Shown here: positions 43,362 through 52,862 of the stretch, piece after piece
Numbering within the stretch: position 1 is the first letter of the stretch
How the letters are laid out: every line of letters begins with the position of its first letter
Assembly (NCBI GenBank): GCA_947495915.1
Contig: CANMAW010000003.1
Span: forward strand, 124,001 to 188,000
Length of the DNA: 64,000 bases
Reading direction: 5' to 3'
Source of the DNA: Maribacter algarum (ex Lu et al. 2025) (nom. illeg.)
GTDB taxonomy: Bacteria > Bacteroidota > Bacteroidia > Flavobacteriales > Flavobacteriaceae
Translations under genes and position numbers: made by a program
The notes under the pieces: generated by a model
Database searches by the model: none
Told to the model about the DNA's origin: nothing
Seen by the model: the letters and a program-made list of their open reading frames with translations, nothing else

Positions 43362-43958
43362 ATGCAAGATTTTCAGTTTCCTATCGACTTTACTTTTAAT
43401 ATTGGAACGCTTTCTAACGATTTTACCGCTGTAGATGCTCAACAAAAAACCGTTGCCTATGTAAAACAAAAGCTATTTAAATTTAAAGAGGATGTCAGTG
43501 TTTTTGAAAATGAAAATAAAACCAAAGTACTTTATAAAATAAAAGCTGATCGGTGGATCGATTTTTCAGCGTGCTACGCTTTCACCGATGCCGAGGGGAA
43601 AGAGTTGGGAAAAATTGGCCGTAAGGGCTGGGCATCACTTTGGAAGGCTCATTATGAAATCTTTGACAATAAACAACAATTAAAATTTACTATTCGTGAA
43701 GAAAATGCTTGGGTAAAGGTACTTGACGGCTTGGTAGGTCAAATTCCGATAATCAATCTTTTTACAGGAATGTTCTTAAACCCTGCTTACTTAGTAATCA
43801 ACAATAGAAATGAAACAGTAGTTCGTTTATCTAAAGAAAAATCATTGGTTGGCCGTCGTTTTAAAGTAAGTGAGATAAAAAAACTAGATGGCTTAGATGA
43901 TGATATAATAATTTTAGGATTAATGATGATGGTTCTTTTAGAACGAAGAAAAGGCTAA
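43362..43958 (+). CDS. LURP1-related / scramblase-like beta-barrel protein
   Basis: A 198-residue protein resembling the LURP-one-related (tubby-like, phospholipid scramblase fold) family: YVKQKLFKFKEDVSVF, LYKIKADRWIDFSACY, DAEGKELGKIGRKGW strands and a C-terminal helix (IIILGLMMMVLLERRKG). The family binds membranes or lipids; a biochemical role is not established in bacteria. It lies 77 bases after the preceding gene and overlaps the convergent channel gene by 4 bases. Confidence 0.75.
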   Translation: MQDFQFPIDFTFNIGTLSNDFTAVDAQQKTVAYVKQKLFKFKEDVSVFENENKTKVLYKIKADRWIDFSACYAFTDAEGKELGKIGRKGWASLWKAHYEIFDNKQQLKFTIREENAWVKVLDGLVGQIPIINLFTGMFLNPAYLVINNRNETVVRLSKEKSLVGRRFKVSEIKKLDGLDDDIIILGLMMMVLLERRKG

Positions 43959-45034
43959 AGCTCCGTTAAACCATATTCATTTAAAACAAGTTGCCACTCT
44001 TGTGTTTCCATAATTTCTAAAATACGTTGAGATACCATTTGTTCTAATGCGGTATTATGTTTTGCCAATCCGAAGGCATAAAATTGAACATCAAACCGAA
44101 CTGGCAGTAATTGCAACTTTGCCAATGTCGAATCTTCTTGAATTCGATATTTCATTATGGGTTCGTCATACATGAAAGCCTCTATTTCTCCATCTCGCAA
44201 TTGATTCAAACCTGGCACTACGGCTTCAAATAATTGAATATCTTTAAAAAAGTGTTCATTTAAAAAACTGTTAGAACTTGAGTTCTTTATCGTACCAATA
44301 GAACGCTCTTTAAAAGCATGAAAACCATCAGGATTACTATTTAATTGGGTCACCGTTAAACTTGATGCGATACTTGCTGTTAACCCTGAAATAAAAAGTA
44401 GTCCCCCAAACATTAAAACTAAAGCTGCAATTTTACCCATTCTTGTTTTTGGCGTTTTGTCACCATATCCTACCGTTGTTAACGTCACTGCCGACCACCA
44501 CACGCCATCCCAAATACCTCGATATCCTTTACGAAATTGTTGATCTTCTTTACGTTCGAAATACCAACCTATCAAACCAAAAAGAAAAATTATCAGTAAC
44601 AATACCAATAATCCTTTCAAAAAATTTTGATTAAAAAATCCTTTCAAATAAGACAAGAGTTTTTGATAAGAAGATCGCTCAGCAACTGCAATGGTAGAAT
44701 TTGAAGCATAAAACGAATGTGTAAACTCCATCACCTTACTTCTTTTACTCGTAATAGTCAACGGATTTATACTGACATCAACTCCCCCACTTTCTAAAGA
44801 ATCTAACATATCAGAAAATGCCATTGGCACTAATCTATAGTTTAAGTCGAGATCATCTGCTACTTTTTTCCAGAGCCAAACATTGATTCCTGACAAAGAA
44901 GAATCATTTTCAACTATAAAAGGTGGTGCTGAAGTATAACCAACGCTTAAAGTATCTTGCATGGTTTGGTGCTACTGAGAAAAGGCAGTAAAACAACCGA
45001 AAAGTATTAAACCAAGTAGTATTTTATGAAGCAT
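43955..45034 (-). pseudogene. Glutamate-receptor-like K+ channel, signal peptide cut off by an in-frame TAG
   Basis: Residues from the ATG at 44962 give 335 amino acids: half of a ligand-binding domain, a membrane segment, pore loop and the K+ selectivity filter TTVGYGD, another membrane segment, then the second half of the ligand domain. This is the prokaryotic ionotropic glutamate receptor (GluR0) layout. Upstream, in the same frame, an ATG at 45034 encodes a good signal peptide ending TAFSQ; a single TAG at 44972-44974 then stops translation before HQTMQDTL. If this stop is real, the product lacks its signal peptide. Confidence 0.75.
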
Positions 45035-45613: not shown

Positions 45614-46378
45614 TTAACTTGCCTGTTGTTTATTAAACTGTCTTTTTAAATCATCCATTGATTCTTGAAGTTGTTTTAACAAACCAGTTTCCGTTGTGGC
45701 ATCAACACCAAAAGTAATTTTACTACTCACTTCCCATATTTCCTGAATCTGAAAAGGCTTTATTTCATAAGGAGGATAGGTCTCATTTAAAGAAACTAAA
45801 TTAACATTATTAGAATTAGGCTTTCGAATTACCTTTTTGACCAATACAGCATCTTCTAAAACAACCACATACATTTTGTTTGCGCTAACCTGGTCAATAT
45901 GTTCGGTAGCTCTTGCCAATACCCATTCGCCAGGTTTTAAATTAGGAAGCATACTATCACCCTCAACCTGAAACCCTCTATAAGTGGCGTTTCTAAATTC
46001 AGGTAACGGCAAATCAAAGGCAGGTAACTCTTTGTACCAAGAGGTATCTTGAATGTTCTGAGGGTATCCGGCTGCTGCCTTCGCATTTACAAGAACCATA
46101 TTATCGCGCTCTTCTGAATCAACAGTCACCACCTTAGGTATTACACTCGTATTTGAAGTTGCTAAATTTTTACTATCACTTTCTCCAAATAACCATAAAG
46201 GATTAATCTTAAATTGTTTAAATAACTCAACGACTACCTTGCCCGACAGCTTGGTGCGACCTCTTTCAATATCAGCTGTGGTACTTGAAACACCAAGTAA
46301 CTTAGCAAACTCAGCTTGAGTATACCCTAGTTCTCTTCGTATTTCAATAAATCGTTTTAAGGTTATTTCATTTTCCAT
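45614..46378 (-). CDS. LexA-like repressor: HTH plus self-cleaving S24 peptidase
   Basis: A 254-residue regulator from the ATG at 46378. Residues 5-65 form a Cro/XRE-type helix-turn-helix (YTQAEFAKLLGVSSTTADIERG). The C-terminal S24 domain has a probable Ala103-Gly104 cleavage bond (KAAAGYP), nucleophile Ser142 (EGDSMLPNL) and base Lys181 (AVLVKKVI), with LexA-like spacing. It probably represses in undamaged cells and cuts itself on RecA activation. It is divergent from the radical SAM gene, with an operator array between. Codons back to 46405 are in frame but unneeded. Confidence 0.88.
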   Translation of the reverse strand: MENEITLKRFIEIRRELGYTQAEFAKLLGVSSTTADIERGRTKLSGKVVVELFKQFKINPLWLFGESDSKNLATSNTSVIPKVVTVDSEERDNMVLVNAKAAAGYPQNIQDTSWYKELPAFDLPLPEFRNATYRGFQVEGDSMLPNLKPGEWVLARATEHIDQVSANKMYVVVLEDAVLVKKVIRKPNSNNVNLVSLNETYPPYEIKPFQIQEIWEVSSKITFGVDATTETGLLKQLQESMDDLKRQFNKQQAS

Positions 46379-46469
46379 ATGATGTTGAAGTTTAAAAAAG
46401 ACCATTGAGGTATTTTACAATCAAGCTATTACCCATTCAAATACCTTAAAGAGTCCATTAAATCATTCT

Positions 46470-46477
46470 CAAATATA
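46470..46477 (-). promoter_or_regulatory. -7 element of the LexA-like repressor gene
   Basis: CAAATATA on the plus strand reads TATATTTG on the minus strand, an exact TAnnTTTG match 92 bases upstream of the ATG at 46378. The first operator-like site (46486-46496) lies just upstream of it, where a bound repressor would block the -33 region. Confidence 0.6.
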
Positions 46478-46485
46478 CTCAATTA

Positions 46486-46556
46486 GGAATAATTCCAAAA
46501 ATAATTGTGGATTATTTCCATAATATGGATTATTTCCATAATTTTGGAATAATTAC
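46486..46556. promoter_or_regulatory. Array of four operator-like near-palindromes between the repressor and radical SAM genes
   Basis: Site 1 GGAATAATTCC (46486-46496) is a perfect palindrome. Sites 2 and 3 are identical TGGATTATTTCCA (46508-46520 and 46526-46538), spaced exactly 18 bases. Site 4 GGAATAATTAC (46546-46556) differs from site 1 by one base. All share half-sites of the form GGAwT. They lie between divergent -7 elements, and site 4 overlaps the plus-strand element. The simplest reading is that they bind the adjacent LexA-like repressor. Confidence 0.65.
46539..46546 (+). promoter_or_regulatory. -7 element of the radical SAM gene
   Basis: TAATTTTG matches TAnnTTTG exactly, 29 bases before the ATG at 46576. 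It overlaps the fourth operator-like site, so repressor binding would directly block transcription. It also places an in-frame upstream ATG at 46507 outside the transcript. Confidence 0.6.
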
Positions 46557-46575
46557 ACATAAACAAATTATTCGT

Positions 46576-47838
46576 ATGTCTTTTGAAAGAGTAAGAGAAA
46601 AACTTAACATACTTGCTGATGCTGCCAAATACGATGTATCATGTTCAAGTAGCGGAAGCTCTAGAACAAACACATCAAACGGATTAGGAAACAGTACTGG
46701 CATGGGTATATGTCACAGTTATACTGAAGATGGTCGTTGTGTGTCATTGTTAAAAATTTTACTCACCAATCATTGCATTTTTGACTGTGCATATTGTGTA
46801 ACAAGAAAAAGTAATGACATCAAACGTGCTGCATTTAAAATTCAAGAAGTCGTTGATCTTACGATTAACTTTTATAGAAGAAACTATATTGAAGGACTCT
46901 TTTTAAGCTCAGGGATATTTAAAAGTGCTGATTACACCATGGAGCGTTTAATTGCAGTAGCCAAGAAATTACGTTTAGAAGAAAATTTTAATGGTTATAT
47001 ACATCTAAAATCTATTCCAGGAGCGAGTGATGATCTTATGCGTGAAGCCGGGTTATGGGCTGATAGACTTTCTGTAAACATTGAAATTCCGACGATATCG
47101 GGACTAAAACTTCTTGCACCCGACAAGCGTCATGATGATTTCATCAAACCTATGTTAAAAGTGAAGAATGAAATCATTCAATATAAAGCTGAAAAAAAAC
47201 TAATAAAAAGTACCCCTAAATATGCTCCAGCGGGTCAAAGCACACAAATGATCATTGGAGCCACTGGTGAATCTGATAAAGACATCATGTATTCAGCAAC
47301 CTACTATTATAAAAACTATAATATGAAACGCGTATACTATTCTGGATATGTGCCAGTAGCTGAAGATGCGCGATTACCGTCACTTGGCACTCAAGTACCA
47401 ATGTTACGTGAAAACCGCTTATATCAGACAGATTGGCTGTTACGGTTTTATGGTTTTTCAGTAGGTGAAATTTTGACTGAAAAACAACCAAATTTAGATA
47501 TAACAGTCGACCCCAAATTAAGTTGGGCATTGCGAAACTATCATCAGTTTCCTGTCAATATTAATACCGCTGATAGAAGAACCTTAGCTAGAGTGCCTGG
47601 TATTGGCATGCGTTCGGTTTCAAAAATTATAAATGCACGCCGCTTTCGAAAACTTAACTGGGAGCATTTAAAAAAAATAGGAATAGCACTAAACCGAGCT
47701 AAGTACTTTGTCATCTGTGAATCAAAAGAATGGTTACGTGATGACCTAGAACCAGAACTAATTAAAAATTTAATTATAAAAAATAGTCAAAGCAAATTTA
47801 GAGGAAACTATAGCAGTCAACTATCGTTATTTAACTAA
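46576..47838 (+). CDS. Radical SAM protein, putative DNA repair/modification, with HhH domain
   Basis: From the ATG at 46576 a 420-residue protein with the radical SAM cluster Cys67-x3-Cys71-x2-Cys74 (NHCIFDCAYC). After the barrel it ends in a helix-hairpin-helix DNA-binding motif (INTADRRTLARVPGIGMRSV). This matches the radical SAM family known beside UDG-linked/DUF4130 proteins and thought to repair or modify DNA. The chemistry is not known. Its partner DUF4130 gene is downstream, and its promoter overlaps LexA-like operators. Confidence 0.85.
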   Translation: MSFERVREKLNILADAAKYDVSCSSSGSSRTNTSNGLGNSTGMGICHSYTEDGRCVSLLKILLTNHCIFDCAYCVTRKSNDIKRAAFKIQEVVDLTINFYRRNYIEGLFLSSGIFKSADYTMERLIAVAKKLRLEENFNGYIHLKSIPGASDDLMREAGLWADRLSVNIEIPTISGLKLLAPDKRHDDFIKPMLKVKNEIIQYKAEKKLIKSTPKYAPAGQSTQMIIGATGESDKDIMYSATYYYKNYNMKRVYYSGYVPVAEDARLPSLGTQVPMLRENRLYQTDWLLRFYGFSVGEILTEKQPNLDITVDPKLSWALRNYHQFPVNINTADRRTLARVPGIGMRSVSKIINARRFRKLNWEHLKKIGIALNRAKYFVICESKEWLRDDLEPELIKNLIIKNSQSKFRGNYSSQLSLFN

Positions 47839-47851
47839 TACCAACACTACT

Positions 47852-48001
47852 ATGAATAATCACATGAAATTAAAATCAGAACAAAACTCTCTTTACTCTT
47901 TTAGTCGCACTGCGATTTTGAATTTAGGCTATCGCTACTTGGTTTGGAAGATAGATACTAAGAAAAAATGGAAATATTCATTATTACGAGCGACACAATA
48001 A
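47852..48001 (+). CDS. Possible 49-residue protein between the radical SAM and DUF4130 genes
   Basis: A short frame opens 13 bases after the radical SAM stop and runs 49 codons (MNNHMKLKSEQNSLYSFSRT..., basic, no signal peptide). It could be a small protein of the same operon, or a chance frame in a 291-base gap. No family similarity is seen, and the ribosome-binding site is weak. Confidence 0.3.
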   Translation: MNNHMKLKSEQNSLYSFSRTAILNLGYRYLVWKIDTKKKWKYSLLRATQ

Positions 48002-48129
48002 AAAAAGGAACAACTAGTCGTGTAAACAGCTTAAGCTTAAAATGAAAGTCGCCTTTTAAATATTTAAAAATTAATGTCAAAAAAACATTAATCCTATAAA
48101 AAAGAACTAGTCCTTTAACAAGCAAACTT

Positions 48130-48906
48130 ATGAAAGAAGCAACAATTTTGATTTATGACGGAAGTTTTAATGGGTTTTTGACTTCGATATTTAAAGCATT
48201 TGATGAGCAAATATGTATCGCAGATATTCAGAAAAACAAGGTGGCACAAAGAGGTCTATTTTCTCAAAACGAAACCGTATTCACTAATGTGAGTCAGGCT
48301 AAAAGAGTATGGAATGGTATTCAAAAGAAAAGTAATACCGCTATTAAAAATGTTTATTTCGCTTTTCTTAGTGAGCACAGCGGTATTGAAATGAACTTAT
48401 ATTATTATATCAGAAAACTGTTTGCAACCAACCAAAAAGTTTATACTGACTATACCGATGAAACCATGTTGAAGATAACACAACTGGCAAAATCTGTTGG
48501 GCGTGAAAAACATAGAATGGAAGCCTTCGTAAGGTTTCAAAAAACCAAAGATGATATTTACTTTGCTAATATAGAGCCAGACTTTGATGTACTTCCGTTA
48601 ATTTCCAAACATTTTAGATCTCGCTATGCAGATCAGCAATGGTTAATATATGATGTAAAGCGTAAGTACGGTATTTTCTATGATCTAAATTCAGTACAAA
48701 TTATTTCATTAGATCTCAGCGAAATCCATACCAACAAATTACAGAGAAATGATATTTTCACTAGCGATGAATATGAATATCAAAACATGTGGAATAATTA
48801 CTTTAAAAATACCAATATTAAATCGCGCATTAACCGAAAACTTCACACCCAACATGTACCAAAAAGATATTGGAAATATTTAAGTGAAAAAAAAGAAGCT
48901 GTCTAA
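48130..48906 (+). CDS. DUF4130 (TIGR03915-like) DNA metabolism protein
   Basis: A 258-residue protein resembling the DUF4130 family: IYDGSFNGFLTSIFKAF at the start, VGREKHRMEAFVRFQKTKDD in the middle, and PDFDVLPLISKHFRSRYADQQWLIYD. In other bacteria this domain occurs beside, or fused with, a uracil-DNA-glycosylase-like domain and next to the radical SAM partner seen here. The gene follows 291 bases after its partner, and the pair probably shares the damage-controlled promoter. Enzymatic role unknown. Confidence 0.85.
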   Translation: MKEATILIYDGSFNGFLTSIFKAFDEQICIADIQKNKVAQRGLFSQNETVFTNVSQAKRVWNGIQKKSNTAIKNVYFAFLSEHSGIEMNLYYYIRKLFATNQKVYTDYTDETMLKITQLAKSVGREKHRMEAFVRFQKTKDDIYFANIEPDFDVLPLISKHFRSRYADQQWLIYDVKRKYGIFYDLNSVQIISLDLSEIHTNKLQRNDIFTSDEYEYQNMWNNYFKNTNIKSRINRKLHTQHVPKRYWKYLSEKKEAV

Positions 48907-49880: not shown

Positions 49881-50003
49881 TAAAATATTTGTATAACTCA
49901 AAATTAAAAGATGATTTTCACATAAGATTATACCTTTTCAACCGCTAAACTGTAAATAACAAAAAGGAATTTATAGGGCTTCTCTTTTTAGAAGCCAAAA
50001 TTG

Positions 50004-50011
50004 TACTTTTG
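50004..50011 (+). promoter_or_regulatory. Bacteroidota -7 element for uvrA, with upstream hairpin
   Basis: TACTTTTG matches TAnnTTTG exactly, 19 bases before the ATG at 50031. Just upstream (49977-49996) a perfect 7-base stem GGCTTCT/AGAAGCC encloses CTTTTT and covers the -33 region. No copy of the GGAwT operator is seen here, so LexA-like control of uvrA is not supported. Confidence 0.55.
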
Positions 50012-50030
50012 CAATCTTGCTATAGAAAAA

Positions 50031-52862
50031 ATGATTAGTTACGAAGAAAATATTGAGGTTAAAGGAGCTCGAGTTCATAACCTAAAAAACATTGACGTGA
50101 CCATACCTCGTGAGAAACTGGTGGTCATTACTGGTTTATCGGGCAGTGGTAAATCATCACTGGCATTTGACACCATATATGCGGAGGGGCAACGAAGGTA
50201 TATCGAAACATTTTCTGCCTATGCCCGACAGTTTTTAGGAGGATTAGAAAGACCTGATGTTGATAAAATTGATGGCCTATCACCAGTAATCGCAATTGAA
50301 CAAAAAACCACCTCAAAATCTCCCCGAAGTACGGTTGGCACCATCACTGAAATATATGATTTTTTACGATTACTGTTTGCTAGAGCTGGTGATGCCTATA
50401 GTTATAACACCGGTGAAAAAATGGTCAGTTATAGCGACGATCAGATTAAGCAACTTATAAAAAAAGACTTTTTAAACAAAAAGGTTAATATCCTCTCCCC
50501 CATTATAAAATCTAGAAAAGGTCATTACCGTGAGCTTTTCGAACAAATTGGGAAACAAGGATTTGTAAAAGTACGGGTTGATGGTGAAATTTTAGATATT
50601 ACTAAGGGCATGAAAGTTGATCGTTACAAAACTCATGATATTGAGATTGTAATTGATCGTCTGAAAATAAATGAAACCGAAGATAATGATAAAAGACTTT
50701 CTGAATCAATAAACACCGCCATGTACAGTGGCGATGATGTTTTGATGGTTTTAGAAGAAGGAGTTTCCGATGCGCGTTATTTTAGTCGTAATCTTATGTG
50801 CCCGTCAACTGGAATTTCATATCCGAACCCTGAACCTAATACATTTTCTTTCAATTCCCCAAAAGGAATGTGTCCGCACTGTAATGGCTTGGGTCATGTA
50901 TTTGAAGTCAATGAGCAAAAAATTTTTCCAGATAAAAAGCTCTCCATAAAATCTGGAGGCATTGCTCCTTTAGGAGAATACAAAAAATCATGGGCCTTCA
51001 AACAAATAGAAACTATCGCACAACGCTATGGTTTTGAAATCACAGATGCGATTTCAAAAATTCCTAAAGAAGCTATTGATGTACTTTTAAATGGTGGAGT
51101 AGAAAATTTTGAGGTTGATTCTAAAACCTTAGGCGTCAAACGCACTTATAAAATTGATTACGAAGGCATTTCTAATTTTATAAAAAACCAGTTTGATGAA
51201 GCAGCTTCTACCTCTATTAAAAGATGGGCAAAAGAATATATGGATCAAATTACGTGTCCGACATGTGATGGTTCTCGATTGCGAAAAGAGTCGTTAAACT
51301 TCAAGATTAATGAGTGTAACATTGCTGAGCTAGCTCATTTAGATATTGCTGAACTGGCTGGTTTTTTCGCAAAACTAGAAAATAGTCTAGAAGGAAATCA
51401 ATTAAAGATCGCAGAAGAAATCATTAAAGAAATTAAAACCAGAATTCAGTTTTTGCTTGACGTTGGCTTAGACTATTTGTCGCTTAATCGTAGTTCAAAA
51501 TCACTTTCTGGTGGAGAAGCCCAGCGAATTCGATTAGCCACACAAATTGGCTCACAGTTAGTTGGTGTACTATATATTTTAGATGAACCAAGTATTGGGC
51601 TTCATCAACGAGATAATGATCGCTTGATCAAATCTTTAGAATCGCTTCGAGATATTGGAAATTCTGTTATCGTAGTTGAACATGATCGTGATATGATCGA
51701 ACGAGCAGATCACGTTATTGATATCGGACCAAAAGCGGGACGACATGGTGGAGAAATAATTTCTCAAGGGCTTCCAAAAGATTTGGTAAAAGAAAACACC
51801 CTTACCGCTGATTACATCACTGGTAAAAAGGAAATTTCGGTTCCGCTTAAACGAAGAAAAGGTAATGGTAAAAAAATTACATTATCTGGGTGTACAGGTA
51901 ACAATCTTAAAAACGTAACCATTGAGCTCCCTTTGGGCAAAATGATTGGTGTTACAGGTGTTTCGGGTAGTGGCAAATCCACATTAATTAATGAAACCCT
52001 ATACCCCATCATGAATGCTTACTACTTCAATGGGGTTAAAAAACCGATGCCCTATAAAAAAATCAAGGGCCTTGAGCATATTGATAAAGTTATAGATATT
52101 AATCAGAGTCCTATAGGGCGAACACCTCGATCTAACCCCGCAACTTACACCGGTGTGTTTAGTGAAATCCGTTCGTTGTTTACTAAAACTCCTGAAGCTG
52201 CTATTCGTGGTTACAAACCCGGAAGGTTCAGTTTTAATGTTAAAGGAGGACGTTGTGAAACCTGCCAAGGTGGTGGCTTACGCGTGATAGAAATGAACTT
52301 TTTACCAGATGTTTATGTAGAATGTGAAACATGTAATGGTAAACGTTTTAATCGCGAAACACTTGAAATAAGGTACAAAGGCAAGTCAATTGCCGATGTT
52401 TTAGAAATGACTATTAATGAAGCTGTTGATTTTTTTGAACTTATTCCTAAAATTCATCGTAAGTTAAAAACCATACAAGATGTCGGTCTAGGTTATATTT
52501 CGTTAGGGCAACAATCGACTACTCTTTCTGGTGGAGAAGCTCAACGTATTAAACTTGCAACCGAATTATCAAAACGTGATACTGGTAATACCTTTTATAT
52601 TTTAGATGAACCTACCACTGGCCTACATTTTGAAGATATTAGGGTACTAATGGAAGTTTTGAACCGTTTGGTAGACAAAGGAAATACCATATTAGTAATT
52701 GAACACAATATGGATGTAATTAAAATGGCTGATTATCTAATTGATATTGGTTACGAAGGTGGTCGCGGTGGCGGCATGGTTGTTGCTAAAGGCACGCCAG
52801 AAGAAGTGAGTAAAGACAAGAAAAGCTATACTGCAAAATTTTTGATTAAAGAATTGGTTTAG
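50031..52862 (+). CDS. uvrA: Excinuclease ABC subunit A
   Basis: A 943-residue protein from the ATG at 50031. It has two ABC-type ATPase halves (Walker A GLSGSGKS and GVSGSGKS; signature LSGGEAQRI in each), zinc-binding motifs [19 protein letters not shown] and CETCQGGGL...CETCNGKRF, and the UvrB-contacting insert. It recognises bulky DNA lesions and loads UvrB in nucleotide excision repair. A TTG frame opening at 50001 lies in the promoter and is rejected. It lies 2 kb from the radical SAM/LexA-like module. Confidence 0.95.

Follow-up and report, generated by a model that had tools for sequence, protein, structure and literature searches.

Non-canonical LexA proteins of the Bacteroidetes, composed of a CI-type helix-turn-helix (HTH) domain and an S24 domain, have been described by Sanchez-Osuna et al. 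2021 (PMC8565304). One such group, present mainly in Flavobacteriaceae, binds the motif GGA-N5-TCC, with specific binding demonstrated by electrophoretic mobility shift assay in relatives of the organism studied here, and mitomycin C induces several genes but not the recA of the GGA-N5-TCC species; the inferred regulon comprises DinB, SplB, SRAP and a COG1573-COG4277 operon, and a phage origin has been proposed for the family (PMC8565304). In this report, we analyse a 64,000-nucleotide stretch of Maribacter algarum (contig CANMAW010000003.1, positions 124,001 to 188,000; hereafter the window), in which a repressor gene stands divergent to a radical S-adenosylmethionine (SAM) gene and a DUF4130 gene. 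The circuit fits the known SOS switch of the Flavobacteriaceae, and what is new is a set of DUF4130 residues that appears to depend on the radical SAM gene, together with the survival of DUF4130 where that gene is absent. An earlier note, made from the sequence alone, had singled out this locus as a damage-inducible module; because the circuit is already published, that finding is mostly confirmation. Of greater interest is the pair itself: as the note supposed, we found no description of its chemistry in the literature searched. The three genes are as follows.

45617 to 46378, minus strand: repressor gene, HTH_3 plus Peptidase_S24, 254 amino acids (aa), from open reading frame (ORF) prediction and domain search

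46576 to 47838, plus strand (ATG to stop): radical SAM gene, TIGR03916, 420 aa, 671 bits against a cut-off of 343.5

48130 to 48906, plus strand: DUF4130 gene, TIGR03915, 258 aa, 271 bits against a cut-off of 112.25

The two plus-strand genes resemble the TIGR03916 (rSAM_link_UDG)/TIGR03915 pair in that both score far over the cut-offs and lie adjacent on the same strand, and differ in that many Flavobacteriaceae keep DUF4130 without the radical SAM gene, which allows partner-linked residues to be defined here. The radical SAM protein carries CX3CX2C at C67, C71 and C74 and a helix-hairpin-helix-like region near its C-terminus (26.2 bits, below the cut-off of 27); among NCBIfam models it matches TIGR03916 alone, a family that we take to be COG4277, and a sequence search of solved structures returned weak RuvA matches only. 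Its AlphaFold model (predicted local distance difference test score 46) was left unused. PA0069/SplB-like radical SAM proteins have the radical SAM core in common with it and include one member behind sites of the same type in this genome, and they are covered by a separate model, NF033668. The DUF4130 protein has no further Pfam domain and thus no uracil-DNA-glycosylase fusion; the published COG4277 operon involves the uracil-DNA glycosylase COG1573, whereas the partner here is without such a domain (PMC8565304). No literature linking UdgX with radical SAM was found, and PADLOC gave no match for either member of the pair.

We propose, with a probability of roughly 0.8, that a general SOS repressor controls the operator array, the pair and at least three operons, and that the pair is a two-subunit DNA-repair enzyme. 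The repressor on the operator array would block its own and the opposite promoter; upon DNA damage, RecA filaments would bring about self-cleavage of the repressor and both promoters would open, releasing the repressor gene, the radical SAM/DUF4130 pair and the operons of a DinB-like polymerase, SRAP and a PA0069 SplB-like radical SAM protein. The pair would most likely act as one enzyme whose target is damaged DNA; the radical SAM subunit would carry out the reaction, and DUF4130 would hold the substrate or present it. Approximately 19 DUF4130 residues would form a surface or pocket that works with the radical SAM subunit, and a second part of the protein, including an eight-residue core (D10, G15, T52, E126, P150, W171, D175 and R178) and others, would serve a function that persists where the partner is absent. 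We infer that cleavage and repression occur in this organism, and the DUF4130 part of the explanation, which we likewise infer, comes from evolutionary comparison.

The distribution of the two genes provides a natural experiment. Our first set comprised 80 family genomes, 56 of which had a repressor match, and the best 30 were read: the radical SAM gene was present in 15 and DUF4130 in 21, including all 15 with the radical SAM gene. The repressor was divergent to the radical SAM gene followed by DUF4130 in 13 of these 15, and to DUF4130 alone in six genomes. Among named relatives (the best 80 of 480, to which all counts out of 80 loci refer), 55 loci carried both genes, 24 carried DUF4130 alone and one (L257) carried neither. 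Genomes or loci with DUF4130 but without the radical SAM (TIGR03916) gene are called orphans. The radical SAM gene was missing genome-wide in all 23 orphan genomes searched (L257 being excluded and L280 not in the search) and in all six orphans of the first set, two of which are the same genomes as among the 23. On a tree built quickly from the repressor, and from uvrA where present (40 of 81 rows), the radical SAM gene switches between presence and absence 19 times, and well-supported branches force at least 11 of these switches. This repeated absence with DUF4130 kept suggests a role for DUF4130 on its own, identifies its partner-linked part and names residues to mutate.

We compared 66 paired DUF4130 proteins of Flavobacteriaceae with 28 orphans (30 ORFs before two duplicates were removed) and with 29 DUF4130 loci read phylum-wide, where 82 of 247 genomes had a DUF4130 match and 27 of the 29 loci had a radical SAM match, in some cases partial, in a short flank. 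In the paired proteins, 68 columns reached a conservation of 97% or more; 25 of these persisted in at least 95% of orphans, and 34 persisted in no more than 65%. Permutation of the same losses left no more than one column kept in 2000 runs, and 23 columns were kept among the 16 orphans of separate lineages. Columns lost in orphans and identical in at least 28 of the 29 phylum-wide proteins defined a 19-residue signature (H128, R129, M130, R135, D151, R165, Q169, E214, W221, F225, I230, R233, N235, P244, Y247, W248, K249, E253 and K254). All 66 paired proteins carry it in full, as do 27 of the 29 phylum-wide proteins and one of the 28 orphans. The eight-residue core was complete in 64 of 66, 29 of 29 and 26 of 28, respectively. 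Across independent pairs on the tree, an intact signature (at least 18 residues) agreed with radical SAM presence in ten, with none opposite and one showing no difference (p 0.002). The comparison thus suggests which parts of DUF4130 depend on the radical SAM gene.

Could orphan DUF4130 genes merely be decaying, so that the residue pattern reflects ordinary loss of constraint and not two separate functions? Nine of 28 orphan proteins are shortened to 200-239 aa, and the ratio of nonsynonymous to synonymous substitution rates (dN/dS) is raised over residues 201-258, at 0.11-0.23 in the three of six orphan pairs that were computable against 0-0.06 in seven of eight paired sisters, values to be read with the facts that the sister pairs were hand-picked, that many dS values were near saturation and that two of the six orphan pairs were near neighbours, not sisters. 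All 30 orphan ORFs, however, lack internal stops and end normally, all 24 orphan loci among the named relatives still have the operator triple with its -7 element, whole-gene dN/dS is 0.05-0.10 in the five of six pairs computable, and the 25 columns kept contrast with the single column, at most, expected from random placement. We therefore consider decay unlikely as the source of the pattern.

A division of DUF4130 into two parts raises the matter of its fold. The predicted fold weakly resembles DHH proteins (RecJ, Cdc45, PAP phosphatase and PggH) over residues 1-234, with no Foldseek match at E of 0.001 or below and a root-mean-square deviation of 8-11 Å in the first six rows. At the sequence level there was no DHH match: a search of solved structures with the single sequence returned nothing, a profile search returned one de novo protein (E 0.64), and none of the expected DHH metal-binding motifs was visible among the invariant DUF4130 residues in the alignment. 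We tentatively entertain, at somewhat less than even odds, that DUF4130 is a RecJ/Cdc45-like DHH-fold DNA-handling subunit under SOS control with two separable roles; one would depend on the radical SAM protein and comprise the signature, spread over an interdomain helix, the second domain and a C-terminal tail that probably folds on the partner, and the other would be independent of it and kept through its repeated, independent absence. The possible DHH fold offers a structural hypothesis for a protein that has no sequence relative among solved structures.

The repressor ORF spans 45614-46405 on the minus strand, with a conserved start at 46378, and the domain search identified a CI-type HTH (HTH_3, PF01381) and an S24 peptidase. 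The Ala-Gly bond and Ser/Lys dyad read by the earlier note were borne out: the residues needed for self-cleavage, Ala103-Gly104, Ser142 and Lys181 (also Lys182), do not vary across the 81 repressors aligned. Searches of solved structures by sequence and of PADLOC gave one and two weak HTH matches, respectively. In its own genome, the repressor is the sole match of its kind. The published GGA-N5-TCC LexA likewise has HTH_3 and S24 domains, an Ala-Gly bond, a Ser-Lys dyad and sites before its own gene (PMC8565304), and the repressor fits this non-canonical group on every feature testable here, membership being judged from the features described for the group, which includes the published S. agarivorans repressor. 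Two S24 proteins were found in the genome, the repressor and a second that we tried as a UmuD candidate and rejected as part of a GIY-YIG/Schlafen-type helicase fusion. This 739-aa protein (L109:4432-6651, minus strand; own genome C1, approximately 1155431-1157650) joins a GIY-YIG nuclease, a Schlafen-group-3 helicase and a C-terminal S24 domain (PF00717, 23.5 bits against a cut-off of 23.3).

The intergenic region between the divergent genes holds the following elements.

46486 to 46496: operator 1, GGAATAATTCC, exact GGA-N5-TCC, inside the predicted repressor promoter

46509 to 46519: operator 2, GGATTATTTCC, exact GGA-N5-TCC

46527 to 46537: operator 3, GGATTATTTCC, exact GGA-N5-TCC, adjoining the radical SAM-side -7 element

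46546 to 46556: fourth site, GGAATAATTAC, imperfect; 53 of 80 loci have a GGA-N5-TAC in the corresponding position

46539 to 46546, plus strand: -7 element TAATTTTG of the predicted radical SAM/DUF4130 promoter, sharing one base with the fourth site

46477 to 46470, minus strand: -7 element TATATTTG of the predicted repressor promoter, with TTG 18 nucleotides upstream at 46498-46496

46503 to 46496, minus strand: second minus-strand element, TATTTTTG

The operator array (46486-46556) is flanked by two TAnnTTTG elements. Bacteroidota promoters have an established consensus of a -7 element and a TTG, and the TTG 18 nucleotides from the minus-strand -7 element places operator 1 within the spacer of the repressor promoter; the plus-strand -7 element has no TTG at the usual distance upstream. 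Two claims of the earlier note stood here: the array lies exactly where it had been drawn, three of its four sites being exact, and -7 elements occur on both strands, one of them overlapped by an operator. The absence of the sites from close relatives, which the note had named as a refuting outcome, was not observed: at least one GGA-N5-TCC lies before the repressor in 30 of 30 first-set genomes. All 80 named loci have exactly one triple spaced by 22/23 and 18 bp, located 20-637 bases upstream of the repressor start, against a frequency of 0.18 GGA-N5-TCC per kb elsewhere in these loci. All 80 also have a TAnnTTTG whose first base lies exactly 12 bases beyond the start of operator 3, and an opposite-strand -7 element (CAAAnnTA) lies just left of operator 1 in 78. 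This fixed three-operator geometry and the placement of the -7 elements go beyond what is described for the published GGA-N5-TCC LexA. In Maribacter sp. ACAM166 (L257 and L286), the array before the repressor is retained, though the pair lies elsewhere.

We then consider the extent of the regulon. GGA-W5-TCC occurs 60 times in the genome, against 41 for a control pattern; a longer pattern with flanking bases had proved too loose (145 forward matches against 104 and 89 for controls) and was replaced by it. Of the 55 sites examined for context, 42 lie inside predicted ORFs and 13 are intergenic, ORFs being counted from any ATG, GTG or TTG start at a length of at least 60 aa, so that a site near a start (e.g. 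C1:47854) may really be upstream. Nine of the 13 form four clusters, namely the triple of the locus and three pairs of sites 19 bp apart, and the remaining four are single; these sites outside the locus are listed below.

C9:9457/9476: site pair before a Y-family polymerase gene (PF00817)

C2:247857/247876: site pair before an SRAP gene (PF02586, 98.9 bits)

C1:343619/343638: site pair before a PA0069 family radical SAM gene (NF033668, 467.9 bits); one of the two lies in a TTG-extended frame and was tallied as intergenic

C1:904627 (L044:1501-1511): single site GGAAAAATTCC, 101 bases before a DUF3127 gene (PF11325)

Two single sites: before a cobalamin-adenosyltransferase-like and a dihydrodipicolinate-synthase-like gene (gene names by eye)

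C1:1155206: single site, 332 bases before an unnamed gene

The earlier note had proposed a local SOS-type circuit, in which a dedicated repressor would control only itself and the pair and would sense the very lesion that the pair repairs. The divergent arrangement, in 13 of 15 first-set genomes with the radical SAM gene and 55 of 80 named loci, is what such a circuit would look like. However, tandem sites also precede the polymerase, SRAP and PA0069 radical SAM genes of the same genome, and the sites thus indicate an SOS regulon that is general, though partial, instead of a local circuit. By reading, moreover, the repressor faces other genes elsewhere in the family: in the 11 first-set genomes in which the pair is not adjacent to it, its neighbour looked like a DinB-like polymerase in two genomes, and an SRAP-like gene and uvrA seemed to take that place in one genome each. 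With a repressor that is the sole match of its kind and sites before at least three further SOS-type genes, the local circuit had to be given up as very improbable. The companion idea, that the triggering lesion offers a clue to the substrate, is not a valid conclusion: what sets off LexA-type cleavage is the RecA filament formed on single-stranded DNA, a signal that is not lesion-specific. Because the trigger is generic and the SOS control general, the control does not reveal the substrate of the pair. A global regulon has also been published for this group, in which polymerase, SRAP and SplB-like genes correspond to those behind sites here (PMC8565304).

Scarcely credible is a resident prophage CI with the pair as phage cargo, for which the CI type of the HTH_3 domain and the proposed phage origin of the family (PMC8565304) can be cited, given that the arrangement recurs in Maribacter, Zobellia, Cellulophaga, Pricia, Flagellimonas and other named genera, that a full-length uvrA match lies in the flank of 40 of 81 rows and that inspection by eye of the ORFs at 42-53 kb (five of them domain-searched) turned up no phage genes.

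Besides the limits given with the dN/dS values and with the group membership of the repressor, several observations weigh against a general SOS repressor governing a two-part DUF4130. The signature was picked with the orphans in view, and its loss in orphans is therefore partly by construction; phylum-wide conservation, the permutation test and the recurrence across lineages are independent of this selection. One phylum-wide protein (L185) comes from the genome of L242, itself in the paired set. The least changed orphans, L278 (19 of 19 residues) and L283 (17 of 19), would be explained by a recent loss, or by assemblies in which the gene was overlooked. The tree does not separate gain from loss of the radical SAM gene, the changes being read mainly as losses because orphans retain remnants of the signature, and the radical SAM label is hardly clustered on it, 50 of 500 shuffles being as low. 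In G063, the pair lies on a different contig from the repressor, and in G010 approximately 6 kb away; in L257, the pair is found away from the repressor, its radical SAM frame contains a stop, and the 4.2 kb examined there has no site. Finally, no GGA-N5-TCC was found within the 3.8 kb examined at recA, which was rejected as a member of the regulon, nor at the main dinB on contig 1, and the regulon is thus partial.

Rfam models at gathering scores gave no match anywhere in the window. Downstream of the locus, positions 50001-52862 (plus strand) hold a gene recognised by eye as uvrA, which comes after DUF4130 in several relatives without the radical SAM gene. On the other side, positions 43955-44962 (minus strand) encode a protein that resembles prokaryotic ionotropic glutamate receptors, its solute-binding domain being interrupted by an ion-channel core (PF00497, PF07885 and PF00060).

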